Assembly (NCBI GenBank): GCA_017462785.1
Contig: JAFTQJ010000080.1
Span: forward strand, 1-38,097
Direction of reading: 5' to 3'
From: Oscillospiraceae bacterium
Lineage (GTDB): Bacteria > Bacillota > Clostridia > Oscillospirales > Ruminococcaceae
DNA: 38,097 bases
The notes beneath the pieces were generated by a model. That model ran no database searches, had not been told where the DNA came from, and saw only the letters and a list, made by a program, of their open reading frames with translations. Positions 781-20,735 of the stretch are shown piece after piece. The stretch's first letter is position 1. Each line of letters opens with the position of its first letter. The translations under genes were made by a program, and so were the position numbers.

Positions 781-3027
781 TTGCCAAGAAACAGTGAACA
801 TTATGACATTGACCGATTCTCAGAGAGTGCCGTGCTCTCACTCGATGCTGCCATGTACCTCGCCGGAGAGCTGGGGCATACCTATGTCGGTACCGAGCAT
901 TACCTGCTCGGACTGCTCCGGCAGCAGCCCAATGCCGCAGCGGAGATCCTCACGGCTGCCGGCATCACAGAACCCCGTCTGTACCAGCAGATCGTCCAGC
1001 TGGTCGGAAAAGGAAACAGAACCTCCCCCGGCTACCGCTGCATGACACCTGCTCTGCACCGGATGTTCCGGAAAGCCCAGATGCTGGCGGATGCCGGCGG
1101 TCATACCGAAACCGATACACAGTGGCTCCTGCTTGCCGTCCTTCAGGACGATAATTGTGCCGCTGTGCAGCTCCTCGAAACTATGGCAGCGGATCTGGAT
1201 GCCCTTGCCGATGCCTGTCTGGGAAAACCCTCGCTCCGACATGCATCCCCTGCACTGCCCACTGCCAAGGAATTCCCCAACCTCTTCCGCTACGGGAAAC
1301 TCCTCACAGGGACGGATGCCTCGCAGGATCCGCTGATCGGCAGGGAAGAGGAGGTTACCCGTGTCCTCCAGATTCTTTCACGCCGCAGCAAAAATAATCC
1401 CTGCCTTGTCGGTGATCCCGGTGTCGGCAAAACTGCCATCGTGCAGGGCGTTGCGGAGCGTTTTGCAAAAGGGGAAGTCCCTGCACAGCTTCAGGGTATG
1501 TTCATCTTTTCCCTCGACCTCGGCTCACTCCTCGCCGGTGCAAAGTACCGTGGAGATTTTGAGGAGCGTGTCCGTGCCTGTGTGGATGAGGTCACTTCAG
1601 GCGGCAGGATCATCCTATTTATAGATGAGCTGCATACGATTGTCGGAGCAGGTGCCGCCGAGGGGGCGATCGATGCTGCCAATATGCTCAAACCACGTCT
1701 TGCAAGAGGGGATCTGCGGATCATTGGTGCAACGACTCCGGCAGAATATCATAAATCCATCGGCAAGGACGGTGCACTTGCCCGACGCTTCCAGTCCGTG
1801 GAGATCCGTGAGCCGTCACCGGAACAGACCCTCGCCATCCTCGGGGGACTGCGTGAAAGCTATGAGTCCTATCACGGCGTTACCATTTCTGACGAAGTTC
1901 TCAGAGCCTGTGTGAACCTCTCGGAGAAATATATCAGCGGCAAGAGCTTTCCGGATAAGGCGATCGACCTCATGGATGAAGCCTGTGCCCGTGCCGCCAT
2001 CCGTTCACAGGGCAAAACGGGCGAAACCGCCGTCACAGCCGAGGATGCCGCCGCCGTTGCATCCGTGAGAACGGGCATTCCGCTGCGGCAGATGACCGCC
2101 GCCGAACAGGAACGCCTGCTCCTTCTCCGCACGGAGCTGAACCGTGAGATCATCGGGCATGATGAGATCATCGAACGCCTGTCCGATGCCGTCTGCCGTG
2201 CCGGAAGCGGTTTCCGTGACATCCGCCGTCCCGTCGGTTCGTTCCTCCTGCTCGGTCCGACCGGTGTCGGCAAGACCGGACTTGTCCGTGCCCTTGCCAG
2301 ATGTCTGCACGGCTCGGAGGATGCCCTCCTGACCGTGGATATGTCCGAATATATGGAGCCGCATTCTGCTGCAAAGCTCATCGGTGCACCGCCCGGCTAT
2401 GCAGGCTATGAGGAGGAAACCAAGTTCTGTGAGCATATCCGCCGCCGTCCGTGCAGCGTGGTGCTCTTTGATGAGATCGAAAAAGCCCACCCCGATGTGC
2501 TCCATATCCTCCTGCAAATGCTTGAGGACGGCGTACTCACCGATGGTGCAGGCAGAAAGATCAGCCTCCGCAGTTCCATGATCTTCATGACCTCCAACCT
2601 CGGCATGCACGAAACCACGCAGAGCGTCGGGTTCATCCAGCGTTCCGAAACGGTACAGCGTGCACCGGAAGCCCTCCGGAAAGCCCTCCCTGCGGAGCTG
2701 CTCAACCGTATGGATGAGATCCTGACCTTTTCACGGCTCAGTGAGGAAAGCCTTGCAGCCATCGCACGGCGACAGCTTGCGGAGGTTGCAGAACGTGCGG
2801 ACAGAATGGGACTGACGCTCCACTTCTCAGAAGAAGCCATCCGCACCGCTGCATCCTGTGCGGAAACGAGGGAATACGGTGCACGCCCCATCCGCCGTTT
2901 CATCACAAGGGAGGTGGAAAACCCGCTTTCCCGTATGTGGCTGAAAGGCGAGATCCACGCCGGCGACCATGTGCAGATCACAGGAAATGACGGCGTACTG
3001 CGGTTCCTGACAGGGGCAGCGGTGTGA
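781..3027 (+). CDS. Two-domain Clp/Hsp100 AAA+ unfoldase (ClpC/ClpA type)
   Basis: 748 residues. An N-terminal Clp repeat domain (about 10-140) recruits substrates or adaptors. AAA+ domain 1 has Walker A GDPGVGKT (211-218) and Walker B LFIDE (279-283). Domain 2 has Walker A GPTGVGKT (492-499) and Walker B LFDEIEKA (562-569). The linker between the two domains is short and has no ClpB-like coiled-coil M domain and no ClpC UVR motif, so the architecture is nearer ClpA in length. SVGF at 615-618 sits where ClpP-binding loops ([ILV]-G-[FL]) lie, so it probably feeds unfolded proteins to ClpP in the cytoplasm. The start is TTG at 781, set by a strong AAAGGAGG 9 nt upstream; no ATG fits. It stands alone, without ctsR or mcsAB. 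Exact subfamily naming is uncertain. Confidence 0.88.
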
Positions 3028-3048
3028 TTGCTGTATACCGTTGCTTTC

Positions 3049-3066
3049 AAGGGGCGTAAGCCCCTT
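3049..3066 (+). terminator. Hairpin after the Clp gene
   Basis: AAGGGGC (3049-3055), GTAA loop, GCCCCTT (3060-3066), followed by a second small stem GCTGC/GCAGC (3071-3082). No T tract follows directly, so termination would be weak. T-rich sequence appears only at about 3110-3145. Confidence 0.35.
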
Positions 3067-3169
3067 GGTTGCTGCAGGCAGCGAATCTTCCTCTATGGAA
3101 AGAAACAAAACTTTTTCATATTTTTTTGTATTTTTTTACAATTTTAAGATTCCTTTAAGAAAACGCCCG

Positions 3170-3175
3170 TATAAT
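3170..3175 (+). promoter_or_regulatory. -10 element of the dockerin/beta-helix gene
   Basis: A perfect TATAAT 88 bp before the start codon. No recognisable -35 lies at 16-19 bp upstream. The leader between it and the ribosome site (AAAGGAG at about 3250) is about 75 nt. Confidence 0.45.
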
Positions 3176-3263
3176 GAAAACAATCGCAGGGGTCATCCGC
3201 CGTGCAAATAGGAGCGTACCCCTCGGCATACGGAAAATTCTATGATATAAAGGAGCGATTTTT

Positions 3264-5294
3264 ATGAAAAAGCATGTTTTCAAACGCAGTTTCGCAGGTC
3301 TGATCGCAGCAGGTACCATGTGTGCAGCAATGCCCGCATTCGAGATCTCCGCAGCACAGACACTCGCAGGTGACCTCAATCTGGACAGCACTGTCAGCGT
3401 TGCCGATGTTGTCATGATGCAGAAATATCTGCTCGGTCTGGCTTCCCTCTCCGGTGATGCATTTGATAATGCCAATGTATCCGCAGACAATGCGGTCAAT
3501 GCATTCGATATGGCAGTACTCAAGAAGATGGTGACAAAGGGCACAACCACCGAACCGGATCAGCCTGTTGAGCCTACCGGCGACAATGTGGTAACTGCAA
3601 TTGCTTATGATGCTGCAAGCGTCACACTGTACAATGCAAACGGCGAAGTCGTAACAGAGCCGACCAATGTCACAGCAAGCGGCACAACTGTCACCGTGAT
3701 CCAGCCCGGTACGATCGATGTCAGCGGTACCTGCGATACTGCACAGATCATCGTGGACGTTGACAAAACAACCTATGTGGACGGCGAAGTAGAGCTGGCA
3801 CTCAAGGGTGCAAACCTCTCCAACTCCAGCACATCCCCGATCTATGTTGCACAGGTGGACGGCGAAGCAGTCATCTCCGTGAAGAACGGCTATGAAAATA
3901 CCATTTCCGATGGTACAAGCTATACCAATGCGGATGGTGATATGGGTGCCATCTATGCCTGTGATGACCTCAAGATCAAGGGCAAGGGTACTCTGACTGT
4001 CAACGGCAACGGCGGTGACGGTATCGTCTGCAAGAATGACATCAAGCTCTACAATGGTACACTCATTGTCAATGCTGTGGATGACGGTATCCGTGGCAAG
4101 GACAGCGTCACGGTTGGTGATGTGGATGATACGGACTTCAGTGCACTGAATGTTACCATCAATGCAAAGGGCGGCGACGGCATCAAGTCCACCGAAACCG
4201 ATACCACTTCCGGCAAGGGCTATGTGGAAGTGAACGGCGGTACACTCAATATTACATCCTATGGCGATGGTATCAGCGGCGTGCAGACTGTTAACATCAA
4301 CGGCGGTACACTGGATATTGAAACCACCGGCAGCAAGGATTCCGGCAGTGCAAAGGGCATCAAGTCCGGTGAAACAGATGACGAAACAGGCACAGTGACC
4401 ACCGGTGTTGTGAACATCAACGGCGGCACACTGAACCTCAATACCAATGATGACGGCATCAACTCCAACGGCGATGTCAACATGCTCGGCGGTGTCACAG
4501 AAATCACCGTCAAGGGCACAACCTCCGGCTATCAGGGCGTTCATGCAGATGCAGCTGTAACCCTCGGCAATGCCGGCAGCGAAACAGTCTACAACGATAT
4601 GACGCTTATCATCTATCAGGCATATGAGGGCATCGAAGCTATGAACATTTACCAGAAGAGCGGTACAACGATCGTTTCCTCTACGGATGACGCTTATAAT
4701 GTAGCAGGCGGTGCGGATAACTCCGGTTCTTCCGGCATGTGGCCCGGTCAGGGCGGCGGCATGGGCAGCAGTTCCGGCGGCGTTCTGGAGATCAGCGGCG
4801 GCTTCTCCATCGTAAGTGTTGCTTCCGGCGACCATGATGGTTACGACTCCAACGGTTCTCTGACAATTTCCGGCGGTATTTGTGTTACCAATGGTCAGGA
4901 TGCGTTCGACTGTGACGGCGGCATCTCTTATACTGGCGGTGTATATGTCAAGGACATCGGCTCCCAGATGGGCGGCATGGGCGGCATGGGAGGCGGCTCT
5001 TCCATGACAGAATCCGTCAATGTATCCGCATCCGTAAGTGCCGGCACAAGAGTGACTCTCTGCGACGGCAGCGGCAATATCATCGTATCCTTCATTGCTG
5101 ACAAGCAGTGCTCCAGCCTTGTTGCAGGCTGCACAGCCTACAGCGGTGCGACCTTCTACACGGGCGGTGAGCTGAATGGTTCCACCTACTTCCAGGAATA
5201 TGACCAGACACAGCTTGCTGCATACGGCGGCACACTCTCCGGCGGTACCGCAGTCAGCGGCTCTTCCTCCGGCGACAATAACCAGTGGTGGTAA
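3264..5294 (+). CDS. Secreted protein: N-terminal dockerin plus Cthe_2159-like beta-helix
   Basis: 676 residues. Signal peptide 1-31 (KR-rich start, cut after SAA). A dockerin with two calcium-loop repeats follows directly (36-91: LNLDSTVSVAD, then NVSADNAVNAFD). A TEP/DQP linker (94-106) leads into a long right-handed beta-helix-like region with recurring VNINGGTL, GDGI and DDGI steps. It resembles the carbohydrate-binding Cthe_2159 family, whose Clostridium thermocellum founder is known to bind cellulose and polygalacturonate. Two Gly-Met-rich loops (about 490-505 and 567-586) are unusual. The dockerin implies cell-surface cellulosome attachment; the substrate is probably pectin or cellulose (inference). 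A N-terminal dockerin is less common than a C-terminal one. Start supported by AAAGGAG 11 nt upstream. Confidence 0.85.
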   Translation: MKKHVFKRSFAGLIAAGTMCAAMPAFEISAAQTLAGDLNLDSTVSVADVVMMQKYLLGLASLSGDAFDNANVSADNAVNAFDMAVLKKMVTKGTTTEPDQPVEPTGDNVVTAIAYDAASVTLYNANGEVVTEPTNVTASGTTVTVIQPGTIDVSGTCDTAQIIVDVDKTTYVDGEVELALKGANLSNSSTSPIYVAQVDGEAVISVKNGYENTISDGTSYTNADGDMGAIYACDDLKIKGKGTLTVNGNGGDGIVCKNDIKLYNGTLIVNAVDDGIRGKDSVTVGDVDDTDFSALNVTINAKGGDGIKSTETDTTSGKGYVEVNGGTLNITSYGDGISGVQTVNINGGTLDIETTGSKDSGSAKGIKSGETDDETGTVTTGVVNINGGTLNLNTNDDGINSNGDVNMLGGVTEITVKGTTSGYQGVHADAAVTLGNAGSETVYNDMTLIIYQAYEGIEAMNIYQKSGTTIVSSTDDAYNVAGGADNSGSSGMWPGQGGGMGSSSGGVLEISGGFSIVSVASGDHDGYDSNGSLTISGGICVTNGQDAFDCDGGISYTGGVYVKDIGSQMGGMGGMGGGSSMTESVNVSASVSAGTRVTLCDGSGNIIVSFIADKQCSSLVAGCTAYSGATFYTGGELNGSTYFQEYDQTQLAAYGGTLSGGTAVSGSSSGDNNQWW

Positions 5295-9557: not shown

Positions 9558-11585
9558 TTACTTTACAGGAAGTTCCTTCAGGATCTTGACTGCATACTTG
9601 AGGATGTTCAGTGCGTCCGCAGAAGTCGGCTCGCCGTCGCAGTCAACGTCTGCATTCTTGATGCTCTGCTCGGAAAGTGTCTCGCCGATCATCAGATTCT
9701 TGTTCAGTGCAAGTACGTCTGCAATGGATACTGTGCCGTCACCATTGACATCACCGTAAACAACTTCATCCGGAGCAGCAGTATCACTCGGATCAGTATC
9801 GCTCGGATCGGTTTCTTCCGTTGCCGGAGGTGTATCGGGAGCGTCAGAAGAATAGAGATCAGCCGGCAGCTCATCGAGCATAATGCAGTAATCGCTTGTC
9901 AGCAGCTCTGTCAGGGCCTCCTTGTCCTGATAATTGTCACCGCTGATGAAATTATCCTGACCGTTGTCATACCATGTGCAGAAGTACAGCCAGCCAGCCT
10001 TTTCGATGGTCATGTTGTCCAGACTCGGAACGGAGCTGTTCTCGGGCATTGCAACCATCTTCTTGCCGTCCACATAGTTGTACAGATCGTAGAAAATGCC
10101 GGTTTCAGCGTCCAGATTCGGGCCGCTTGTCAGACCGTCATGACGGTTGTACTGGGTGTTGTACTTATCCAGACCAACAATGTCCACATAGTCATCACCA
10201 ACATACCATTCTGCGGAAGCCGGTGACCAGTTGTAGAGGTTCTGTACCCAGATCAGGTTGTGCAGACCATAGGTTTCAGTCAGCTCTGTATAAAGGTACT
10301 TCCAGAGTGCCTTGTAGGTTTCTGCACCCTCCTGTGCCCACCAGAACCATGCACCTTCGCCGTTGATACCGCCGTTGCCCTCTGCTTCATGGAACGGACG
10401 GAACATGATCGGTGCACCTGCTTCCTGTGCAAGGAGGAACTGTTCAGCGAGATCCTCAATGCAGAGATTCAGGAAATCATTTTCCTTTGTACCCTCAACA
10501 ACAGCATTTGCAACGCTGAAGGAGGAGTTGTTCTTATAGCTTGCTGCGGACCAATCCACCGGCTCGCCCAGCTCATAGCTGCCGAAATCGGTCGGGAGAT
10601 TCAGGTGCCAGCAAACAGTAGCGATACCATTCTTCTCTGTTACCCAGTTGATCAGACGCTCTGTGGAGCCGTCCTCCCAGCCGTACAGGGGGTTGTAGTT
10701 CATCAGGTCAAAGCCACGGATCGCCGGGAAGGAACCGGAAAGGCTCTCCATGTACTCAAATTCCAGATCATAGTTGGTATGCTTATAGCAGCGGTTCTGG
10801 CTGTCATACTCATACTTCTTGCCGTTTTCGTCGTAGCACTTCCATACAAATGTGCTGCCGTCGTCAGCAGTTGCGAGGTCAGCCTCATCATAGGTATACA
10901 CATTGCCCTCGCTGTCGGTCAGATTGCCGGCTGCGGTATTCAAGGTCAGGGAGTGTGTGGACTGGTGCATGGAGCTGCCGCCGCCGTAGATCTCCTGCTG
11001 ACCTGCAAGGATATGATCGCCGTAAACAGATGCAAGGTACTGCATCAGGGACTTGGTTTCCGGTGTTGCATCGGGGTCACAGGGAACGCTGTTGCCCTTC
11101 AGCTCCGGCAGAACTGCTTCCTTGATGGTGATGGTATCATACGCAACATAGCCATATTTCGGCATGAACTCGATGGTGTTCACACCTGCATTCAGGCGGA
11201 AATTACCAAAGCTGAAATCCGTCCATTCAGCGGTGTAGGGGAATGTTTTCATGTATTCAGAGCCATTGACTGCCACAGTGCTCTGTCTGCCCTCTTCATT
11301 GAGGATCTGTGCATAGCGGCATGTGATCTCATACATACCATCCTCCGGCACCTCTACTTCGAGTGTGATATTACTGCTGGTGTGGTACACGAAGCCATCA
11401 CCGCTGTAACCGGGGAGCTGGGTTTCATAGATACTTGTCCAGACATTCTCAGGATCAAGCACCTCCGCCTCATAGGTGCCAAGCTCCAGTGCGGAAGCCT
11501 GATACAGGGGCATTGCACTGCACATGGAAAGGCTCATTGCAGCTGCCAGTGCAGCGGATGTGAGCTTTCTGAAAGATTTTTTCAT
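9558..11585 (-). CDS. Cellulosomal GH26 beta-mannanase with CBM35 and dockerin
   Basis: 675 residues. Start is the ATG at 11585, 9 nt after AAAGGA; the ATG at 11594 is too close to the ribosome site. Signal peptide 1-32. A CBM35-like module at about 35-160 (YEAEVL, SGDGFVYH, TIEFMPKYGY) binds mannan or uronic acids. The GH26 catalytic domain spans about 165-575, with acid/base glutamate in FRPFHEAEGNGG (E400) followed by WFWWAQ, and the likely nucleophile in MPENSSVPS (E515). A DPSDTDPSDT linker leads to a dockerin (618-675) with loops DVNGDGTVSIAD and DVDCDGEPTSAD. It probably cleaves beta-1,4-mannan or glucomannan on the cellulosome. Substrate is inferred from the family. Confidence 0.93.
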   Translation of the reverse strand: MKKSFRKLTSAALAAAMSLSMCSAMPLYQASALELGTYEAEVLDPENVWTSIYETQLPGYSGDGFVYHTSSNITLEVEVPEDGMYEITCRYAQILNEEGRQSTVAVNGSEYMKTFPYTAEWTDFSFGNFRLNAGVNTIEFMPKYGYVAYDTITIKEAVLPELKGNSVPCDPDATPETKSLMQYLASVYGDHILAGQQEIYGGGSSMHQSTHSLTLNTAAGNLTDSEGNVYTYDEADLATADDGSTFVWKCYDENGKKYEYDSQNRCYKHTNYDLEFEYMESLSGSFPAIRGFDLMNYNPLYGWEDGSTERLINWVTEKNGIATVCWHLNLPTDFGSYELGEPVDWSAASYKNNSSFSVANAVVEGTKENDFLNLCIEDLAEQFLLAQEAGAPIMFRPFHEAEGNGGINGEGAWFWWAQEGAETYKALWKYLYTELTETYGLHNLIWVQNLYNWSPASAEWYVGDDYVDIVGLDKYNTQYNRHDGLTSGPNLDAETGIFYDLYNYVDGKKMVAMPENSSVPSLDNMTIEKAGWLYFCTWYDNGQDNFISGDNYQDKEALTELLTSDYCIMLDELPADLYSSDAPDTPPATEETDPSDTDPSDTAAPDEVVYGDVNGDGTVSIADVLALNKNLMIGETLSEQSIKNADVDCDGEPTSADALNILKYAVKILKELPVK

Positions 11586-11620
11586 TTCTACCATTCCTTT
11601 CTGTATATTAAGGTACTCTC

Positions 11621-11755: not shown

Positions 11756-12826
11756 CTATGGGGCTGCAAAATATTTCCGGAACTTCTCCGCATTCTTCTC
11801 ATAGAGCAGATCCGCCATCGTATCCGCAATGCGGATGAGCATTTTTTCATAGGCACACTGCATCGGGGAAACCTCGGCTTCATCCCCTGTTTCCAGACGG
11901 TTCAGACAGCCGCAGGAATTCGTGCATCGCTCACGCAGATCACATTCCCTGCACTCCTCCGGCAGAACATGCACACGGCTTGCGATCGCCGTTTGTTTCT
12001 GCACATCCAGCCCCCCGAACACATCGCCCATGCAGAAATCTTCGTCCCCGATGAACTGCGTGCAGGCGTAGATCTTCCCGTCCACATTGACCGGCATCTG
12101 CCGCTGTCCGAGGTGGCAGCGGTCGGCAGGATTCTCACCCCTGATGCACTGCCGGATCTTCGCATCGAACGGGCTGAAATAGAACGCTTTCCCTTCAGAA
12201 AAGCATTTTGCATAGAAGGCGGAAATGTCGGTCAGCTCCTTTTCCAGCATTCCGAGGTGTTCCTCCGTCCACTGCACACGTTTCCCGTAGGCAGGCGTTG
12301 CGGTGATACGCCGGAATCCCAGATCGCAGAGATATTTCACAGAATCCGCAAACTGTCCCACCGCCTGCGGTGCAAGGGTCATCATCGCATAGGAACGGGG
12401 CATTTCCTCCAGAAGCAGCCTTGCCGCCCTCTCCGCATCCGCAAGGCTGGAGCTGCCGTCCGCATAGGGACGGCTGATGCCCTGTGCCAGCCCGTCAAAG
12501 GACATGGCGATCGTCATACCGACGGATTTTGCATGATGCAGGAACGTCCTGTCGAGAAGCGTTCCATTCGTCGTCATCTTGCACTGGAACGGCTTTCCGG
12601 TTTGGTGGGAGAGGGATTCGCAGTGATCGAGGGCGATGCCGATCAGCCTTTTTTCCAGCAGCGGTTCACCGCCGAAAAAGCAGAGTCCGGCGGTTTTTCC
12701 CTTGGAAAAGGCAAGCTCACACGCCGCATGCAGCACGTCCTCCGTCATGCGGCGTGGGTGCTTTTCATGGATGCAGTAAACACAGTCCATATTGCAGTTT
12801 TCCGTCAGATGGAGCGTGAAATTCAT
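11756..12826 (-). CDS. Radical SAM/SPASM peptide-maturase-like enzyme
   Basis: 356 residues. Radical SAM cluster motif C11-x3-C15-x2-C18 (CNMDCVYC), FGGEP at 51-55 and MTTNGT at 84-89 for SAM binding. The C-terminal SPASM region carries many cysteines for auxiliary iron-sulphur clusters (C237, C255, C265, C292, C295, C301, C305, C307, C324). This arrangement is shared by sulfatase maturases (anSME) and by enzymes that modify ribosomally made peptides. No sulfatase gene is nearby. Its ATG is 3 nt after the stop of the acidic lipoprotein gene, and its GGAG ribosome site overlaps that gene's last codons, so translation is probably coupled. The likely substrate is that lipoprotein. I recall an NCBI family called the FibroRumin system peptide maturase that should be tested. 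Substrate and reaction are inference. Confidence 0.82.
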   Translation of the reverse strand: MNFTLHLTENCNMDCVYCIHEKHPRRMTEDVLHAACELAFSKGKTAGLCFFGGEPLLEKRLIGIALDHCESLSHQTGKPFQCKMTTNGTLLDRTFLHHAKSVGMTIAMSFDGLAQGISRPYADGSSSLADAERAARLLLEEMPRSYAMMTLAPQAVGQFADSVKYLCDLGFRRITATPAYGKRVQWTEEHLGMLEKELTDISAFYAKCFSEGKAFYFSPFDAKIRQCIRGENPADRCHLGQRQMPVNVDGKIYACTQFIGDEDFCMGDVFGGLDVQKQTAIASRVHVLPEECRECDLRERCTNSCGCLNRLETGDEAEVSPMQCAYEKMLIRIADTMADLLYEKNAEKFRKYFAAP

Positions 12827-12829
12827 GGC

Positions 12830-13273
12830 TTACTCCGTTTCTGTGATGAAAAGCCCCGGTACAGCCGGCGGAATGTCCGAAGCCGGAATTTCATTCACCG
12901 CAATATCTCCTGCAATTTCAAGCTCCGGCTTAGGGGGGGCCGGTTCCGTGTCCGGAAAGGTGAACTCCGCAACACCGGCTGCAAGGGACTCGGAGAGGGG
13001 ACAGGTTTCTTCCGGTTCCATGACCACATCACCGGCAAGCATCACCTCTGTGAATTCCTCCTCGGTCGTATCCTCCGTGGTATCCTCCGTCACGAATGCT
13101 GCATCGCCAGCCAGCTGCACACATGTGGTATCCTCCGGCACATCCATGTCACCGTCGAGCTGCACATCACCGGCAGGATCCGTGCATCCGGTCATTCCTC
13201 CTGCAAACAGCATTGCCGCAAGTCCTGCGGCATATTTCGGAAGCTTGTAATTCTTTTCGGGGTTGCGTTTCAT
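12830..13273 (-). CDS. Acidic lipoprotein with repeated AGD motifs, candidate maturase substrate
   Basis: 147 residues from the ATG at 13273, which has AGAGGAG 8 nt upstream. Basic N-terminus, hydrophobic stretch 14-26 and MTGC at 27-30 form a lipoprotein signal with lipidated C30. The mature part is very acidic, Thr/Pro/Glu-rich and apparently unstructured. Four copies of a short motif, hAGDhxh, stand at PAGDVQL (33-39), LAGDAAF (54-60), LAGDVVM (79-85) and IAGDIAV (120-126), separated by acidic spacers (EDTTEDTTEEE). Cysteines at 51 and 91. No known domain is visible. It sits between a small alarmone synthetase gene (14 nt upstream) and the radical SAM gene (3 nt downstream). The repeats plus the maturase suggest multi-site peptide modification on the cell surface. 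This is inference. Confidence 0.7.
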   Translation of the reverse strand: MKRNPEKNYKLPKYAAGLAAMLFAGGMTGCTDPAGDVQLDGDMDVPEDTTCVQLAGDAAFVTEDTTEDTTEEEFTEVMLAGDVVMEPEETCPLSESLAAGVAEFTFPDTEPAPPKPELEIAGDIAVNEIPASDIPPAVPGLFITETE

Positions 13274-13287
13274 ATCCTCCACTCCTC

Positions 13288-13962
13288 TCAATCCAGTTCA
13301 TGTATCTGCTGATAAATATCCTGCATCCGAAGGTCGGTCATGGAGATGATCTCCGCACATTCCTTCAGCTCTTCTTTCAGCGACAGCGGCACCTCACAGC
13401 TCGTCTTATAATGCAGCTGGTGCTCCAGTGCTGCCCAGAAATCCATTGCGATCGTGCGGATCTGGATCTCTACGGGCACACGCTTCTTTGTTGCCGCCAT
13501 GTATACCGGCACCGTAATGACCATATGAAAGCTCCGGTAGCCGCTGGGCTTGGGGTTCTTGATATAGTCCTTTACCTTCACCAGCTTGAATTCATCATGC
13601 CTTGTGAGCAGCTCCGCAATCGCATAGATATCATCTATGTAGTAACAGATGACACGCACACCGGCAATGTCCATCAGATGCTGTTCCGCTGATTTTGCAG
13701 AAACCGGATGCCCCTTTTTCTGAAGCTTTCCCACAATGCTCTGCGGTGACTTGATGCGGCTCTTGATGTTGTGGATGGGATTCCGCTGGAATTTCATGCT
13801 GAATTCATTGTCATAAATGCTGAGCTGTGTCTTGACGATCTCCGCAGCGGATTCATATAAATGCTCCAGCTCCAGGAATTCATAGAATGCATTGATGATC
13901 TGCTCCCTCTGTGCCGGAACGATCTGCCCGATCGTATCAAGGTAAAAATTCTGTTCGTCCAT
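13288..13962 (-). CDS. Small alarmone synthetase, RelQ/YjbM-like
   Basis: 224 residues from the ATG at 13962 (weak GCAGGTG 5 nt ahead); a GTG at 14013 is an alternative. A single RelA/SpoT synthetase domain without a hydrolase, TGS or ACT domain. Landmarks: IKSRIKSPQSI (substrate entry), DIAGVRVICYYIDDIY (114-129 by the longer count), the KDYIKNPKPSGYRSFH G-loop with the nucleobase-stacking tyrosine, and VEIQIRTIAMDFWAALEHQLHYK, the signature of RelQ/RelP enzymes. It makes (p)ppGpp from ATP and GTP/GDP in the cytoplasm. Its stop lies 14 nt before the AGD-lipoprotein start, so the alarmone synthetase, lipoprotein and radical SAM genes look like one transcript. No promoter of its own was seen in 13963-14041. 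Confidence 0.9.
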   Translation of the reverse strand: MDEQNFYLDTIGQIVPAQREQIINAFYEFLELEHLYESAAEIVKTQLSIYDNEFSMKFQRNPIHNIKSRIKSPQSIVGKLQKKGHPVSAKSAEQHLMDIAGVRVICYYIDDIYAIAELLTRHDEFKLVKVKDYIKNPKPSGYRSFHMVITVPVYMAATKKRVPVEIQIRTIAMDFWAALEHQLHYKTSCEVPLSLKEELKECAEIISMTDLRMQDIYQQIHELD

Positions 13963-14041: not shown

Positions 14042-14791
14042 TTATTCTATCGTATAATACACTTTGCTTGCTACCAGCTCATCTGCAATGCTTTCAATGT
14101 AGGACTCGCTGAGAGTGTCCACAGCAAAAAGCTTTGCACGGGATGCGTCATCCAGCTCGATCTTGAAAGTCACATTGGAATATCTGATGTTTTCAAGCAC
14201 ATCGTTCTGCAGTTCCGGTGCTTCCTCCGGAGCAAAGAAGAAATCATCCTTGTGTTTTGTGAGCGTCTCCTGACCGTGCTCCAGATCGAAATAAAGATCC
14301 ATAAAGCCCAGCGTGGAATATAATGTATATATGCCGTCAAGTGAAGAATAGCTGATCAGGAAGTCGTATTCCTCGACCATATCGCTGACGGTCTTGCCTT
14401 CCAGAGATTTCACGAATGCGTCAAGATTTTTGTCAGTATAGTCATCGTGCTTTGCGTAAACGAACAGGATGTCGGAAATACGCCAAAAACCGCTGACCTC
14501 AAAGCCGATATCCTCCAGCTCTGCAAGTGTCTTTCCAGCCATTTCATTCAGCACATATGTTTCCTGCACTGTTTCCTGTGGCGGTGCAAGATAATCATAG
14601 ATGCTTTTCGTGCCGCCCGCACCCCGATACGCCGCATACTGTAAAATCAACGCTGCGTCTGCGGCATCGACATCGTCATCACCATCCAGATCTCCGCCAA
14701 CAAACTGTACCGCCGATACCGGCATTGCCATTGTGCCTGCTGCTGCTGCGATCGTGAGCAGGAATGCTGCTGCTTTCTTCCAATTCATCAT
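14042..14791 (-). CDS. Secreted protein with a single dockerin repeat
   Basis: 249 residues from the first of two tandem ATGs (14791, 14788), after AAGGAGG. Signal peptide 1-29. Directly after it, at about 30-64, GDLDGDDDVDAADAALILQY followed by a GAGGTKSIYDYL tail is one calcium-binding dockerin repeat with the tail typical of the second half of ruminococcal dockerins. The first repeat is absent. The remaining 180 residues (LNEMAGKTLAELEDIGFEVSG, VKSLEGKTVSDMVEEYDFL) form an acidic domain that I do not recognise; two LEGKT/MAGKT-like segments hint at an internal repeat. It may attach to a cohesin by the half module or use it as a calcium-stabilised fold. Own promoter at 14841-14869. Confidence 0.65.
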   Translation of the reverse strand: MMNWKKAAAFLLTIAAAAGTMAMPVSAVQFVGGDLDGDDDVDAADAALILQYAAYRGAGGTKSIYDYLAPPQETVQETYVLNEMAGKTLAELEDIGFEVSGFWRISDILFVYAKHDDYTDKNLDAFVKSLEGKTVSDMVEEYDFLISYSSLDGIYTLYSTLGFMDLYFDLEHGQETLTKHKDDFFFAPEEAPELQNDVLENIRYSNVTFKIELDDASRAKLFAVDTLSESYIESIADELVASKVYYTIE

Positions 14792-14840
14792 AAAATCCTC
14801 CTTATTATGCTTCATCTTTTTATGGTATGAGGTTTCTATC

Positions 14841-14869
14841 ATTATACCATAGTTTTCCTCACATTTCAA
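14841..14869 (-). promoter_or_regulatory. Promoter of the half-dockerin gene
   Basis: Minus strand TTGAAA (14869-14864), 17-bp spacer, TATAAT (14846-14841) with a TGG extended -10. TATGGTA (14821-14827) and TACCATA (14844-14850) form a possible inverted repeat around the start site. Confidence 0.8.
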
Positions 14870-14940
14870 GTGCTTTTGCACAAATTTCATGCTGATTTTC
14901 ATTAATTTTCACTAATTTTTCCAAAAATACCAAAAAACGC

Positions 14941-15085: not shown

Positions 15086-16096
15086 ATGAAATACAAACTC
15101 GGACTTTACGGCGGCAGCTTCAATCCGCTGCATATGGGGCATGTGGAGTGCATCATCCGCAGTGCCAATCAATGCGAACGCCTGCTCGTGGTCATCAGCC
15201 ACGGCACAAACCGCAGGGAGATCGACGTGCGTGAGCGTTACCGCTGGATCTACCAGCTCACCAAGCACATCGGCAATGTGGAGCTGATGATTCTGGAGGA
15301 TACCGCAGCCACCAAAGCGGACTACAACTGTGAGGAATGCTGGTTTGCGGATGCACAGAAAGTGCGTGAGCGAGTCGGAGCACCCATCAATGCGGTGTTC
15401 TGCGGCAGCGACTACGGCGAGGACAGCTTCTGGGCGAAATGCTATCCGGAGGCGGAGCTTGTGATCTATCCGAGGAACGGCATTTCCTCCACACTGATCC
15501 GTGAAAATCCCTACCGGCACTGGGAGCTTCTCCCGAATGTGGTGAAACCGCATTATGTGAAAAAGGTGCTCCTCATCGGTGCGGAGAGCACGGGCAAATC
15601 CACGCTGACGGAGAATCTGGCGAATTACTTCAACACCAATTTTCTGGAGGAGGTCGGACGGGATATTTCCGAGCGTTCCGGCACGGATACCCTCATGCTG
15701 CCGGAGGATTTCACGGACATTCTGCTGACGCACAAGCTGCGTGAACGTGAAGCGGTGAAGCACAGCAGAATGGTGCTGTTTGAGGATACGGACTGCCTGA
15801 TTACCCGCTTCTTTCTGGAATTTCTGGAGGGGAAGGACAAGGAACGGAACATCGCCCTTGCAAATGCCATTGCATCGCTGAATGACTACGATCTGATCCT
15901 CTTTCTGGAGCCGGATGTGAAATTCGTGCAGGACGGCGATCGGAGCGAGGTCATTGCGGCAGATCGGGAATATTACAGCACCGCCATCAAAAATCTCTAT
16001 CGGGAGCATGGTTTTGCTTTTGTGGAGGTGCGTGGCAGCTACGAGGAGCGTTTTCAGAGGGCTGTGGAGCTGACAAGGGAAATGCTGAATATCTGA
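15086..16096 (+). CDS. nadR: NadR-type NMN adenylyltransferase / nicotinamide riboside kinase
   Basis: 336 residues. The N-terminal nucleotidyltransferase (1-155) has LGLYGGSFNPLHMGHVE (the GxFxPxHxGH site) and GISSTLIRENP. The C-terminal kinase (160-336) has P-loop GAESTGKST and LFEDTDC. Together they turn nicotinamide riboside into NMN and then NAD in the cytoplasm. The DNA-binding helix-turn-helix found in enterobacterial NadR is missing, so it is not a self-repressor. It is followed 14 nt later by pnuC, the cognate transporter, and the pair forms a salvage operon. Start set by AAAGGAG 8 nt upstream. Confidence 0.94.
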   Translation: MKYKLGLYGGSFNPLHMGHVECIIRSANQCERLLVVISHGTNRREIDVRERYRWIYQLTKHIGNVELMILEDTAATKADYNCEECWFADAQKVRERVGAPINAVFCGSDYGEDSFWAKCYPEAELVIYPRNGISSTLIRENPYRHWELLPNVVKPHYVKKVLLIGAESTGKSTLTENLANYFNTNFLEEVGRDISERSGTDTLMLPEDFTDILLTHKLREREAVKHSRMVLFEDTDCLITRFFLEFLEGKDKERNIALANAIASLNDYDLILFLEPDVKFVQDGDRSEVIAADREYYSTAIKNLYREHGFAFVEVRGSYEERFQRAVELTREMLNI

Positions 16097-16110
16097 CAGG
16101 AGGAATCATC

Positions 16111-16788
16111 ATGAACATTCTCAAAAAAATTGCCGCCTACATGACCCCATTCCAGTGGTTTGAGGTACTGGGTGTCATCGGCTTTACCATCTATTTTGCA
16201 GTGATTGACAAAGAAAGTGAAATGTGGTATACTATCCTTAGTTCCATTGCTGCCATCGCCGGCATCTTCTGCGTGGTGCTCTGTGCAGCAGGGAGAAAAT
16301 CTCAATATTACTGGGGATTTATCAATATTGCAGGCTATGTTGCGGTTTCGTGGATGATGAAATTCTACGGAGAAGTCATGCTCAACGCACTCTATTACCT
16401 GCCCACGCAGTTTCTGGGGCTGTATCTCTGGAACAAGCACTCCGCACAGGAGGAGGGCTTTGTCAAGTGCCGCCGACTCAGCCCCCTCTGGACATGTATT
16501 CTGCTGGTCGTGTCGGCTCTGGGCATCTGGGGCTATAAGTACCTGCTGACCGCACTCGGCGGCAATGCGGCATGGCTTGACAGTGCCAGCACGGTGATCT
16601 CCATCGTAGCCAATGCACTGATGGTGCTCCGTTTCCGTGAACAGTGGCTTCTGTGGATCATTGTGGATGCGGTGACCGTTGTGATGTGGCTCGGCACGGG
16701 CGATTACATCATGACCGCAATGTGGGCGTTCTATCTGCTGAATGCGGTGTACGGATTTGTGACGTGGACACGGAAGAGCAGAGCATAA
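16111..16788 (+). CDS. pnuC: Nicotinamide riboside transporter PnuC
   Basis: 225 residues, seven predicted membrane helices. Motifs of the PnuC family are visible: WFEVLGVIGFTIYFAV near the start, a YYWGFINIAGY segment, LYYLPTQFLGLYLW, and the C-terminal LLWIIVDAVTVVMWLGTGDY. It carries nicotinamide riboside into the cell by facilitated diffusion; NadR traps it by phosphorylation. Ribosome site AGGAGG 8 nt upstream, in the same operon as nadR. No terminator follows; instead there is a repeat-rich 312-bp spacer. Confidence 0.94.
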   Translation: MNILKKIAAYMTPFQWFEVLGVIGFTIYFAVIDKESEMWYTILSSIAAIAGIFCVVLCAAGRKSQYYWGFINIAGYVAVSWMMKFYGEVMLNALYYLPTQFLGLYLWNKHSAQEEGFVKCRRLSPLWTCILLVVSALGIWGYKYLLTALGGNAAWLDSASTVISIVANALMVLRFREQWLLWIIVDAVTVVMWLGTGDYIMTAMWAFYLLNAVYGFVTWTRKSRA

Positions 16789-17894: not shown

Positions 17895-17927
17895 ATACAT
17901 ATCTTCAATATTTAGGGGGAGTCAGTG

Positions 17928-20735
17928 ATGAAGAAAGAACAAAGAAACACATGGAAACGCACCGCCGCTTGGCTCTGTGCAGCAGTCATCAGCTTCGGTG
18001 CAGCAGCTCCGGCTGTGTCCGCAATCGAGATCGCACCGCAGGAAAGCGGCATCACCGCAAAGGCAGAAAACCTCCTCACAAGGGATGTCATCTGCCAGAA
18101 CCAGAGTGGTGTGAACTATTGGGAATCCGAGCATTTCCAGTTCATCTGGGGCAGCTACGGCACGGAAAGCTCCAGAGTGACGCAGGAATTTCTGGAGGGC
18201 AATGCCAAGCACCTTGAAGCCTGCTGGGATGTCTACATGAATCACCTGCAAATGGCACCGCCCACGCAGTCCGTGAACCTGTCCCTGCGTGACGGCAATG
18301 AGTACAAGACCAATATCTATATCTCCGGCACAGGACTGGAGGCTTTCACCGATGACTGGGCATATATGTCCTACGATTCCGGCGGATTCGGCTATATGTT
18401 CTGCTGTGTGGATTCCATGGCATATGATACGCCGTCCTGGGTCATGCCCCATGAATTCGCCCACGTTGTCACCGCCCATCAGCTCGGCTGGAATGAGAAC
18501 AAGTACACCTATGCATGGTATGAAACCATGGGCAACTGGTTCCGTGAGCAGTTCCTCTACTCCGATTACTATGCACCATGGGCGGAGTCCGTCGGCGGTA
18601 CGGATTTCTTTGAAACCTACATGAAAAACCTTTGCTTTACCTTCCCGTTCGGACGGGATTATTACGCAGCATGGCCGTTCCTCCAGTATCTGACCGAGAA
18701 TCCCGACAATCTGGAGGGTTACGGTACGGACTTTGTGAAAACCATGCTTCAGGAGGGGCAGAGGGATGAATATCCGCTGACCATGATCGACCGCCTCGCT
18801 CCGGCGGATATGAAGGATACCCTCGGTCACTTCGCCAAGAGAATGGCAACGCTCGACCTTGCACAGCAGGACCGCTACCGTGCAAGACTGAACCAGCTGT
18901 TCTGGAACGGTGCATGGAACTGGGGTGAGATCTACACACCCCTTGACCGCAGCACGGACGATCCGAACTATTATACTGTCCCCACCGAACGTGCACCCCA
19001 GCAGGCAGGCATCAACCTCGTGCCTCTGAATCCCACGGGTGACACCATTTCCGTCACGCTCGAAGGTCTGACCAAGGTGCAGGGTGCGGACTGGAGAGCC
19101 TGCATCGTGGTGGAGCAGAGCGACGGAACCACCCGTTATTCCGATCTTTTCCGATCCGGTGAAACCATGCAGATGGCGTGGAATGCCGGCAGTGATGTGC
19201 AGGCATTCCTGACCGTTGCCGCAACTCCCGACACGAATACCTATGTGCAGGTGGGTCTGCCCTATGGTCCGGATTCTGAGTTTGCAGAAACCAATTATCC
19301 CTTTGATTCCAAGACACGCTATCCCTATGCCGTGACCCTGACCGGAGCTGAGATGCAGTACGAGCAGACCAGCGGCGGTGCATCATACGGCGGCTATCAT
19401 CCGAACGGCGGCGGCTTTGTTGCAGCCACCGCAAGCGTTGACGCAAGTGTCTATGTCGGACCGAATGCCAAAGTACTCGACTATGCGACCGTGACCGGAA
19501 ATGCAGTCATTACGGACTATGCGACCGTCTGCGGCAGTGCGAATGTTTCCGGCAATGCCATTGTCAGCGGTCATGCGGTGATCGCTGAACGTGCAAGCGT
19601 CCGTGACAATGCCATCATCAGCGACTATGCCGGTGTGATGGGCAATGCCGTTGTCAGCGACTACGGCAGAGTGCTCGAAAGCGGTCTGATCTACAACGAC
19701 TATCAGGTAAGCGGCAATGCAGCCGTCAAGGGCGTGGCGTTCTGCATGGCAAAGGGTTCCCTCTCCGGTCAGGCAATTGCGGACGGCGATTATTACGACG
19801 ACGGCAATAAGTCAGTATCCGCAGGCACGGTTTACGGCTGGGTATCGCCGGAAAGCTATACTTCCTCCAGACCGTATACCGACGGTCTGTACATCGGCTA
19901 TGAATTCTCCGAGGACAACGGTGCCATCATTGAGGACACCTACACCTCCACCTACGGCGTGGCAAAAAATGCACCGCTTTGGGAGCAGGAGCGTACCAGC
20001 GGTCAGGGCGTGATGACATTTGACGGCAGAAACCAGTACATCATTGCGGACAGCTCCATGGCAAATTTCCATGATATGGAGATCCAGACAGCTGTGCTCT
20101 GGCGTGACACATTCCGCAGCGACCAGCGTATCTTCAGCTTTGGGGATGATGAAAGGTACATGTATCTGACGGCATCCGGCACGAACGACACACTGGAATT
20201 TGTCATCAACGACGGCAGCGGTGAACAGAAGCTGACAACCGATGTATTCCTGAATTATGGCGAGTGGGTGACCATCAACCTGTCTTTGGCAGGGGATTCT
20301 GCAAAACTGAACGTCAGCGGATGGAATGGCCTATCCAGTGAAGTGACCGGAAACATCACCGCAGACCCAGCAGATGTGGTTTCCTCCGATGCGAAGTACT
20401 ATATCGGCAGGGGACTTGACGGCAATTTCTTCAACGGCTCCATGGACTATTTCCGTGTGAATTTCAAGGATGTAACAGATCCGGACTACTACTATACAGA
20501 AATCGAGAATCCGCCTTCTGAGAGTGGGATTTTCGGTGATCTGGATCGGGACGGCAATGTTGACGCCTTCGATCTTGCCATTCTCAAAAGACGAGTGCTT
20601 GAGCCGGATTACTTTTATCGCTTTGCAGACTGTAATCTTGATAATACAGTTGATGTGACGGACGTTATTGCACTGCAAAAATACTTGTTGGGTTATGGCT
20701 CTGATATCATCGGCACAGAATTGATTATTGGCTAA
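17928..20735 (+). CDS. Cellulosomal HExxH metalloprotease-like protein with beta-helix, LamG-like region and dockerin
   Basis: 935 residues from the ATG at 17928 (GGGGGAG 7 nt upstream; a GTG lies one codon earlier). Signal peptide 1-32. Residues about 60-390 contain HEFAH (175-179) and a downstream WYETMGNWFRE with the candidate third zinc ligand E199, a gluzincin-like site. From memory this resembles the DUF6055/avirulence protein Svx family. A beta domain follows (about 390-480), then left-handed beta-helix hexapeptide repeats (about 498-588: SVDASVYVGPNAKV, ATVTGNAVIT), a LamG/concanavalin-like domain (about 655-848, with FDGRNQYI) and a dockerin (868-925: DLDRDGNVDAFD, DCNLDNTVDVTD). Presumably it acts on glycoproteins at the cell surface. 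The substrate is unknown. Confidence 0.75.
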   Translation: MKKEQRNTWKRTAAWLCAAVISFGAAAPAVSAIEIAPQESGITAKAENLLTRDVICQNQSGVNYWESEHFQFIWGSYGTESSRVTQEFLEGNAKHLEACWDVYMNHLQMAPPTQSVNLSLRDGNEYKTNIYISGTGLEAFTDDWAYMSYDSGGFGYMFCCVDSMAYDTPSWVMPHEFAHVVTAHQLGWNENKYTYAWYETMGNWFREQFLYSDYYAPWAESVGGTDFFETYMKNLCFTFPFGRDYYAAWPFLQYLTENPDNLEGYGTDFVKTMLQEGQRDEYPLTMIDRLAPADMKDTLGHFAKRMATLDLAQQDRYRARLNQLFWNGAWNWGEIYTPLDRSTDDPNYYTVPTERAPQQAGINLVPLNPTGDTISVTLEGLTKVQGADWRACIVVEQSDGTTRYSDLFRSGETMQMAWNAGSDVQAFLTVAATPDTNTYVQVGLPYGPDSEFAETNYPFDSKTRYPYAVTLTGAEMQYEQTSGGASYGGYHPNGGGFVAATASVDASVYVGPNAKVLDYATVTGNAVITDYATVCGSANVSGNAIVSGHAVIAERASVRDNAIISDYAGVMGNAVVSDYGRVLESGLIYNDYQVSGNAAVKGVAFCMAKGSLSGQAIADGDYYDDGNKSVSAGTVYGWVSPESYTSSRPYTDGLYIGYEFSEDNGAIIEDTYTSTYGVAKNAPLWEQERTSGQGVMTFDGRNQYIIADSSMANFHDMEIQTAVLWRDTFRSDQRIFSFGDDERYMYLTASGTNDTLEFVINDGSGEQKLTTDVFLNYGEWVTINLSLAGDSAKLNVSGWNGLSSEVTGNITADPADVVSSDAKYYIGRGLDGNFFNGSMDYFRVNFKDVTDPDYYYTEIENPPSESGIFGDLDRDGNVDAFDLAILKRRVLEPDYFYRFADCNLDNTVDVTDVIALQKYLLGYGSDIIGTELIIG

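Follow-up and report, generated by a model that had tools for sequence, protein, structure and literature searches.

A leader-bearing repeat lipoprotein as the probable substrate of an adjoining radical SAM/SPASM maturase in Clostridia

The window, a stretch of 38,097 nucleotides from an Oscillospiraceae bacterium (contig JAFTQJ010000080.1), carries on its minus strand a gene for an acidic lipoprotein and, immediately downstream, a gene for a radical S-adenosylmethionine (SAM) enzyme of the SPASM type. The two probably constitute a substrate-enzyme pair, in which a leader would guide the lipoprotein to the enzyme and radical modification would occur at multiple sites around glycine, before export and lipidation. 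The pairing of the genes, the leader, the repeats and the co-occurrence of leader and enzyme are directly visible in the sequences. With regard to the parts of this proposal, it is quite likely that the lipoprotein is the substrate of the enzyme and, somewhat less firmly, likely on balance that the glycine-centred motif is the site of modification. Comparison of relatives suggests that the leader is recognised and that the enzyme acts at several sites; the chemistry proposed below is a guess. The gene pair is uncatalogued, and its product is most likely a chemically modified cell-surface protein of a so far undescribed kind.

The pair is preceded on the same strand by a small alarmone synthetase-like gene, so that the order is synthetase, lipoprotein and enzyme, with gaps of 14 and 3 nucleotides. 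These positions, strand and gaps had been given in an earlier note on this DNA, and re-deriving them from the sequence showed them to be correct, as was its placing of the ribosome-binding site of the enzyme (GGAG, 12836-12833) inside the last codons of the lipoprotein gene. The features of the pair are the following.

11756..12826, minus strand: radical SAM/SPASM maturase, 356 amino acids (Pfam PF04055, E 3.4e-13; best NCBIfam match NF047865, 178.9 bits, cut-off 340)
11855..12118, minus strand: SPASM cysteines C237 to C324, auxiliary-cluster ligands (each position conserved at 96-100% among 26 lineage-A enzymes)
12773..12796, minus strand: CX3CX2C radical SAM cluster motif, C11-C18 (invariant in 46 aligned maturases of three lineages)
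12830..13273, minus strand: lipoprotein precursor, 147 amino acids from ATG, proposed substrate (open reading frame, lipobox Cys30, repeats)
12833..12836, minus strand: GGAG, ribosome-binding site for the maturase, which overlaps the final lipoprotein codons
12842..12862, minus strand: degenerate motif VPGLFIT, residues 138-144 (weak fit)
12896..12916, minus strand: repeat motif 5, IAGDIAV, residues 120-126
12962..12982, minus strand: degenerate motif AAGVAEF, residues 98-104 (weak fit)
13019..13039, minus strand: repeat motif 4, LAGDVVM, residues 79-85
13094..13114, minus strand: repeat motif 3, LAGDAAF, residues 54-60
13139..13159, minus strand: repeat motif 2, LDGDMDV, residues 39-45, which shares one residue with motif 1
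13157..13177, minus strand: repeat motif 1, PAGDVQL, residues 33-39
13184..13186, minus strand: lipobox cysteine codon (Cys30), predicted lipid attachment (invariant column in 25 aligned sequences)
13229..13273, minus strand: leader MKRNPEKNYKLPKYA, residues 1-15, within the signal peptide and proposed to be what the enzyme recognises

Occurrence of the gene pair

Relatives were sought in 297 genomes of the family, 391 of the class, 38 of the genus and a collection of 84,980 species, which contained 17 close relatives. Lineage A comprises 30 enzymes in 29 genomes, including the enzyme of the window and a second copy that was met in the leader search. In a tree built from 24 of these 30 (without L035, L040, L047, L137, L142 and L143) together with 12 of the 13 enzymes of a second lineage, B (without L071), the 24 lineage-A enzymes form one clade with full support. 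The gene at locus L035, in which a stop or a broken frame occurs close to the 3' end, was left out of alignment A1 and kept in the pair count. The 17 named relatives belong to Lachnospiraceae, Saccharofermentans, Ruminococcus and other Oscillospiraceae or Clostridia, and their isolate names point mostly to ruminants, to a pig and a horse, and in one case perhaps to a digester.

The earlier note had proposed to ask whether homologues of the enzyme neighbour a lipoprotein with repeats, and they do. In 29 of the 30 lineage-A cases, that of the window included, one to five leader-bearing lipoproteins lie just upstream of the maturase, the nearest ending between -4 and +71 nucleotides from the enzyme start, and in the thirtieth (L046) the end of the contig falls inside the lipoprotein gene. 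Furthermore, two to five lipoproteins stand in tandem upstream of nine of the 30 maturases, and the repeats recur in them far beyond what shuffled sequences contain, as described below. Three further enzymes, namely L072 (31% identity, partial), L048 (24%) and L056 (beside another radical SAM gene), were placed in no lineage. At the L056 locus (1225-3499, genome G158), two different radical SAM genes are adjacent, with ABC transporter-like genes beyond them, and this is perhaps another peptide-maturation locus.

A leader inside the signal peptide

All precursors in an alignment of 25 lipoproteins carry a lipoprotein signal, consisting of a hydrophobic stretch and an invariant lipobox cysteine, and M1, P12, Y14 and A15 are equally invariant. 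The leader consensus in this alignment is MKIxPxKxYKKPLYAxG, of the type MKIxPxKxYKKPxYA, and the mean column identity is 53% across leader and signal versus 17% for the whole protein. The leader reads YxxPxY and thereby resembles YxxPx[LVIFA], which is given in the accessible portion of PMC13381572 as the leader motif of lasso and LPP peptides that is bound by RRE domains.

The distribution of the leader follows that of the enzyme. Among the 297 family genomes, leader profile A3 reached E<1e-5 in G000, G188, G246 and G295, which are exactly the four genomes with a lineage-A maturase, and in none of the other 293, noting that the leaders of three of these four are themselves rows of the profile. 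With the window leader as a row, the profile matched G000 only at the window locus. A match in G047 (7.9e-5) was rejected as a membrane protein without a lipobox. In the 22 maturase genomes searched, 38 leaders were found at E<1e-6, of which 23 are profile rows and 15 are not, and 36 adjoin a maturase; the search also revealed a second maturase-lipoprotein pair in G689 (L103). Leader-like matches in proteins of about 810 amino acids (G690, G691 and G694; E 0.01-0.04) are in frame but internal and were rejected; by eye, these proteins look like M56-type peptidases. No leader protein was seen in the fetched locus of G246 contig 53, which gave a weak leader match (E 0.005-0.05).

The two unlinked leaders belong to lipoproteins of 241 and 408 amino acids from a single genome, G354, encoded on contigs other than that of the maturase (L104 2159-2884 and L105 1873-3099). 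In each, the lipobox is soon followed by a single motif (EYAGETETY in one, EYMGDTTVC in the other) and then by a large domain that matched no family above cut-off. Leader and motif are thus found together also where the enzyme gene is on another contig, as would be expected if the one is recognised and the other is the site.

Glycine-centred repeats

The mature lipoprotein of the window has 118 residues, including 31 Asp or Glu and a single Lys or Arg, in line with its earlier description as acidic; likewise, no known domain was found, as it matched no NCBIfam family and all Pfam matches were below cut-off. The earlier note had recognised four hAGDhxh motifs. Their positions (33-39, 54-60, 79-85 and 120-126) are exact, but the first begins with proline, and further copies are present, namely LDGDMDV at 39-45 and degenerate ones at 98-104 and 138-144. 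The window protein contains four matches to the pattern [ILVMFY][AEDGSTP]G[DEAG], in comparison to a shuffle mean of 0.52, and at least four occurred in 14 of 20,000 shuffles, while at least four matches to [LIVMPA]AGD occurred in none of 20,000. As the pattern was picked after inspection, these fractions are not strict P values.

Across the lipoproteins, the repeats take the form hydrophobic-x-Gly-x-hydrophobic and are broader than AGD, with Ala, Glu, Asp or Gly preceding the central glycine and Asp, Glu, Gly or Ala following it. In 130 unique windows, aligned by a pattern anchored on glycine and set after inspection, the residues that occur most often are [VPL] at -4, [LIY] at -2, [AED] at -1, [DEG] at +1, [VATI] at +2 and [VIL] at +4. 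In the 36 lipoproteins from 25 loci that had been selected by the leader rules at that stage, [ILVMFY][AEDGSTP]G[DEAG] was observed 105 times versus 20.0 expected, and none of 1000 shuffles reached this number. In addition, among 52 open reading frames with a lipobox that were collected by one rule from the loci fetched until then, the 33 with a P-x-Y-[AP] leader have 29 motifs per 1000 residues, compared to 3.6 per 1000 in the 19 others, which include spurious reading frames and several missed members of the system. The earlier idea of a lipoprotein substrate modified at AGD sites is supported by comparison, through the pairing, the repeats and the co-occurrence of leader and enzyme, but the motif itself is wider than AGD.

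Several lipoproteins (L002, L003, L031, L032, L046, L137 and L142) also possess a C-terminal domain of about 140 amino acids with an invariant Trp-Gly, and none of the large lipoprotein domains that were scanned matched Pfam or NCBIfam above cut-off. At locus L036 (3373-4996), one maturase is preceded by a tandem array of five lipoproteins that bear the leader and are 62-115 amino acids long, and four of them have at most one motif. Judging from their sequences, these short proteins would be good candidates for minimal substrates.

The radical SAM/SPASM enzyme

The cysteine set that the earlier note had described was located at C11, C15 and C18 for the radical SAM cluster and at C237, C255, C292, C295, C301, C305 and C324 for the SPASM domain, with a further conserved C307. 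The radical SAM cysteines are invariant in 26 enzymes of lineage A, 12 of lineage B and 8 of a third lineage, C, and the SPASM ligands are conserved at 96-100%, 83-100% and 100%, respectively, as is the cysteine two positions after C305. The enzyme has no signal peptide by eye, and its first cluster cysteine is residue 11.

Pfam detects the Radical_SAM domain, with a sub-threshold SPASM match. Among the best 25 of 63 NCBIfam matches, only the general SPASM-domain model reaches its cut-off (37.3 bits, cut-off 27), meaning that no specific curated model among the matches listed covers this enzyme family. The anaerobic sulfatase maturase model TIGR03942 is far below its cut-off (59.2 bits, cut-off 349.45). 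Consistent with the absence of a sulfatase partner stated in the earlier note, none of the 25 lineage-A genomes searched (out of 29, many with short contigs) has a sulfatase beside the maturase, and a sulfatase as the target was rejected for these 25. Sulfatases are encoded elsewhere in 14 of 25 maturase genomes (E<1e-10), the nearest at 7.6 kb (G554), and in G536 one shares the contig of the maturase at a distance of about 240 kb. The closest PDB sequence is 5wgg/5why, found at E 4.2e-58 with a profile of 27 enzymes from the three lineages. We take 5wgg to be CteB, a thioether-forming peptide maturase.

Proposed mechanism

In the proposed mechanism, the leader K-x-Y-K-x-P-x-Y-A, situated in the signal-peptide n-region of the precursor, would be recognised by the cytoplasmic SPASM enzyme and would bring the nascent lipoprotein to it. 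The enzyme would then act at [VPL]-x-[LIY]-[AEDG]-Gly-[DEGA]-[VATI]-x-[VIL] stretches within the acidic stalk, where a SAM-derived radical would take a hydrogen at or next to each motif glycine and the auxiliary cluster would accept the second electron, yielding an oxidised or cross-linked residue. Finally, the modified protein would undergo Sec export, lipidation at Cys30 by Lgt and cleavage by LspA. A single LspA cut at Cys30 would remove leader and signal together, so that no special leader peptidase would be needed. The end product would be a multiply modified surface stalk, bearing a C-terminal domain in some homologues.

The alpha carbon of glycine would be the most economical site of attack, because the residues that flank the glycine vary and include glycine itself. 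Hydrogen abstraction at this carbon, followed by oxidation and perhaps by capture through a Thr, Asp or Glu close by, is accordingly put forward as a tentative possibility. A stalk of this sort might possibly be stiff, protease-proof or ligand-binding; that its role is to stiffen or protect the surface stalk is a doubtful guess. Radical SAM enzymes of ribosomally synthesised and post-translationally modified peptides (RiPPs) have mostly been described for small secreted peptides, and, if the proposal is true, RiPP biology in gut and rumen bacteria would be widened from small products to structural surface proteins.

Lineages B and C

Lineage B consists of 13 enzymes with 35-42% identity (L005-L008 and L063-L071) that adjoin lipoproteins; at L067 the lipoprotein gene is on the other side, and L069 is cut by the end of the contig. 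A leader reading YxxPxYP or similar can be made out in 12 of the 13, in L068 only if translation starts before the first ATG. The search of class genomes returned 16 enzymes, of which only L072 is without such a neighbour.

Lineage C is distant, with PapB-like enzymes of about 327 amino acids in nine copies from seven of the 297 family genomes (E<1e-70). In seven of the nine cases (L049, L050, L052, L054, L055, L057 and L160) the neighbouring protein starts with M[RK]KFT and continues with a Pro/Thr/Glu-rich linker and then a dockerin, which was above the Pfam cut-off in the five tested and is dockerin-like by eye in L057 and L160. The linkers contain repeats such as PPLAGTM, PPMAGDPLPPDEL, YPTIGDVLPEE and AGDMMPPDYTETE, TIGDV and TVGEE being present in lineage C, and the pair AG, chosen after looking, occurs 24 times in seven linkers versus 4.6 in shuffles, with none of 2000 as high. 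A leader profile of six sequences reached E<1e-4 in the same seven genomes as the enzyme and in no other of the 297; one lineage-C case, on G292 contig 12, falls outside this profile and has the same repeats. Lineage C thus follows the plan of lineage A, in terms of the co-occurrence of leader and enzyme and of the AG repeats.

It is conceivable, albeit tentatively, that two or more distantly related SPASM lineages independently place one and the same undescribed radical modification on Ala/Asp/Glu-Gly repeats within stalks or linkers of surface proteins, these being lipoproteins for one lineage and cellulosome-type dockerin proteins for the other, with each lineage guided by a leader of its own in the signal peptide. 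If so, this would represent a general means of chemically hardening surface linkers in gut and rumen Clostridia.

Several observations weigh against the lipoprotein being a leader-guided, multi-site substrate. The motif and the leader rule were defined on the same proteins in which they were counted, which shuffling cannot correct, and one leader-bearing L036 lipoprotein has no motif by the pattern used. Lineage B provides only partial support, since at least three motifs occur in just four of its 13 loci (L006, L007, L008 and L066), the other nine having none or one per protein. Two of the nine lineage-C maturases (L051 and L053) have no neighbour of the kind described within about 2.5 kb on each side, and long branches separate lineage C from A and B, too far for it to count as one family with them. 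In addition, the enzyme aligns with 5wgg only from residue 99 of the latter, which indicates that it is devoid of the N-terminal part of that protein, presumably its RiPP recognition domain (RRE).

Alternative explanations

Besides attack at glycine itself, the reaction could be an epimerisation or the formation of a side-chain carbon-carbon bond beside glycine, although this seems unlikely. As described in the accessible portion of PMC9062424, the multi-cluster-type radical SAM enzyme TvgB acts on tandem glycine-containing repeats of TvgA, where it makes cyclopropylglycine in TVGG, repeatedly beside glycine, and the TIGDV and TVGEE of lineage C would suit such a reaction. In TvgA, however, valine is the site, whereas in the 86 stricter motifs of lineage A valine or isoleucine directly precedes glycine only once, the residue at this position being Ala in 30, Asp in 19, Glu in 18, Gly in 9 and others in 10. 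Such variability speaks against one common side-chain reaction, and epimerisation is impossible where the residue before glycine is again glycine. The Tvg system is set apart here by its description and not by sequence comparison, and the word lipoprotein is absent from the main text of that paper.

It is also quite unlikely that the lipoprotein assists the enzyme or tethers it to the membrane, with the real substrate elsewhere. The motif could in principle be a binding site, and the pairing in lineage A would be equally expected, but the tandem lipoproteins and the unlinked leader proteins (the latter known from one genome) form a substrate pattern. Moreover, lipoproteins act outside the cytoplasm and the enzyme, lacking an evident signal peptide, does not.

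A ranthipeptide-type reaction, in which a PapB-like enzyme would form bonds in the lipoprotein between cysteine sulfur and the side chains of Asp or Glu, is improbable. PapB maturases (NF047865) are the best profile match, are similar in length and are of the SPASM type, and according to the accessible portion of PMC9413430 PapB links Cys to Asp/Glu within CX3D/E and accepts spacings of 0-6; the window lipoprotein does contain C51-X5-D57 and C90-X3-E94. The score of the window enzyme is nevertheless only about half of the cut-off for PapB, and the lipoproteins have no CX3D/E repeats, a single CX3E being found in that of the window by inspection. Furthermore, cysteine is absent, except for the lipidated one, from nine of the 36 leader-bearing lipoproteins, which have kept the leader and of which eight match the motif pattern, and it lies within the 24-residue context of just 26 of the 86 motifs. 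One of the 36 is even wholly without aromatic or His residues. Thioether and cyclopropylglycine chemistry thus does not fit all of the lipoproteins, in view of these nine and of the rarity of Val/Ile-Gly, and a glycine-centred motif without a common cysteine or reactive side chain points beyond both classes.

The remaining alternative, already raised in the earlier note, extends the pair to a three-gene, starvation-linked unit with the upstream gene.

13288..13962, minus strand: small alarmone synthetase-like gene, adjacent and judged outside the system (RelA_SpoT, Pfam E 5.9e-35)

Its strand and the 14-nucleotide gap make co-transcription likely in the window genome, but the link of the pair to starvation through a (p)ppGpp synthetase did not hold up, since none of the 42 other fetched maturase loci of lineages A and B gave a tblastn match at E<1e-3, within flanks no longer than 5 kb and in many cases no longer than 1.5 kb. 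The synthetase is widespread in the genus (24 of 31 genomes), in comparison to the maturase (4 of 38). In G695, moreover, a synthetase that is 95% identical is followed by an unrelated open reading frame, no maturase was found in the search of genus genomes, and only a 46-bp match of 91% (L140 3353-3398) to window positions 13273-13228 is left; this remnant of the lipoprotein start suggests that the pair was lost there. A three-gene alarmone unit is therefore largely refuted and highly improbable.

Comparison with known systems

No description of this enzyme-lipoprotein system was found among the open-licence papers searched, and no lipoprotein is named in the accessible portions of PMC8326336 and PMC10352776. 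The nearest precedent is provided by the DAG-RiPPs (DybA/DybH and NedA), RiPP-lipoprotein hybrids that have been demonstrated for MNIO enzymes and that their authors, in the accessible portion of the preprint (PMC12636315), expect mainly in leader-independent pathways. Like these, the lipoproteins described here combine a lipoprotein signal on the precursor with a RiPP-type enzyme next door (in 29 of 30 cases), and cytoplasmic modification followed by lipidation at the lipobox cysteine is predicted from their sequences; repeats are shared with NedA. In contrast, the DAG-RiPP enzyme is an MNIO iron oxidase and DybH recognises a C-terminal motif (PMC12636315), whereas a radical SAM/SPASM enzyme, a signal-peptide leader and a glycine-centred motif are seen here. 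The system would thus be a radical SAM version of the RiPP-lipoprotein hybrid, with its leader inside the signal peptide.

Two other known families were compared. The suggestion that the pair belongs to the FibroRumin maturases found no support, as no model of that name is among the best 25 of the 63 NCBIfam matches of the enzyme (the last at 36.1 bits), and the term had no match in the open-licence papers searched. The Bacteroides rSAM/lipoprotein system (TIGR04133/TIGR04134) also places a radical SAM enzyme beside a small lipoprotein. Neither of its models is among the same 25 matches, and the window lipoprotein matches no NCBIfam family.

Genomic context in the window

Three dockerin proteins are encoded in the window, at 3264-5294 (Cthe_2159-type), 9558-11594 (GH26 with CBM35) and 17925-20735 (DUF6055 with a laminin-G-like domain), and, judging from these, the host looks like a cellulosome-bearing bacterium. 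Just upstream of the synthetase, the protein at 14042-14902 has about half a dockerin repeat (VGGDLDGDDDVDAADAALILQYA), which is below the Pfam cut-off. Further on, at 15086-16788, a cytidylyltransferase-like protein with AAA_28, presumably NadR-like, is encoded beside a PnuC-type NMN transporter, and these genes look like ordinary NAD salvage.

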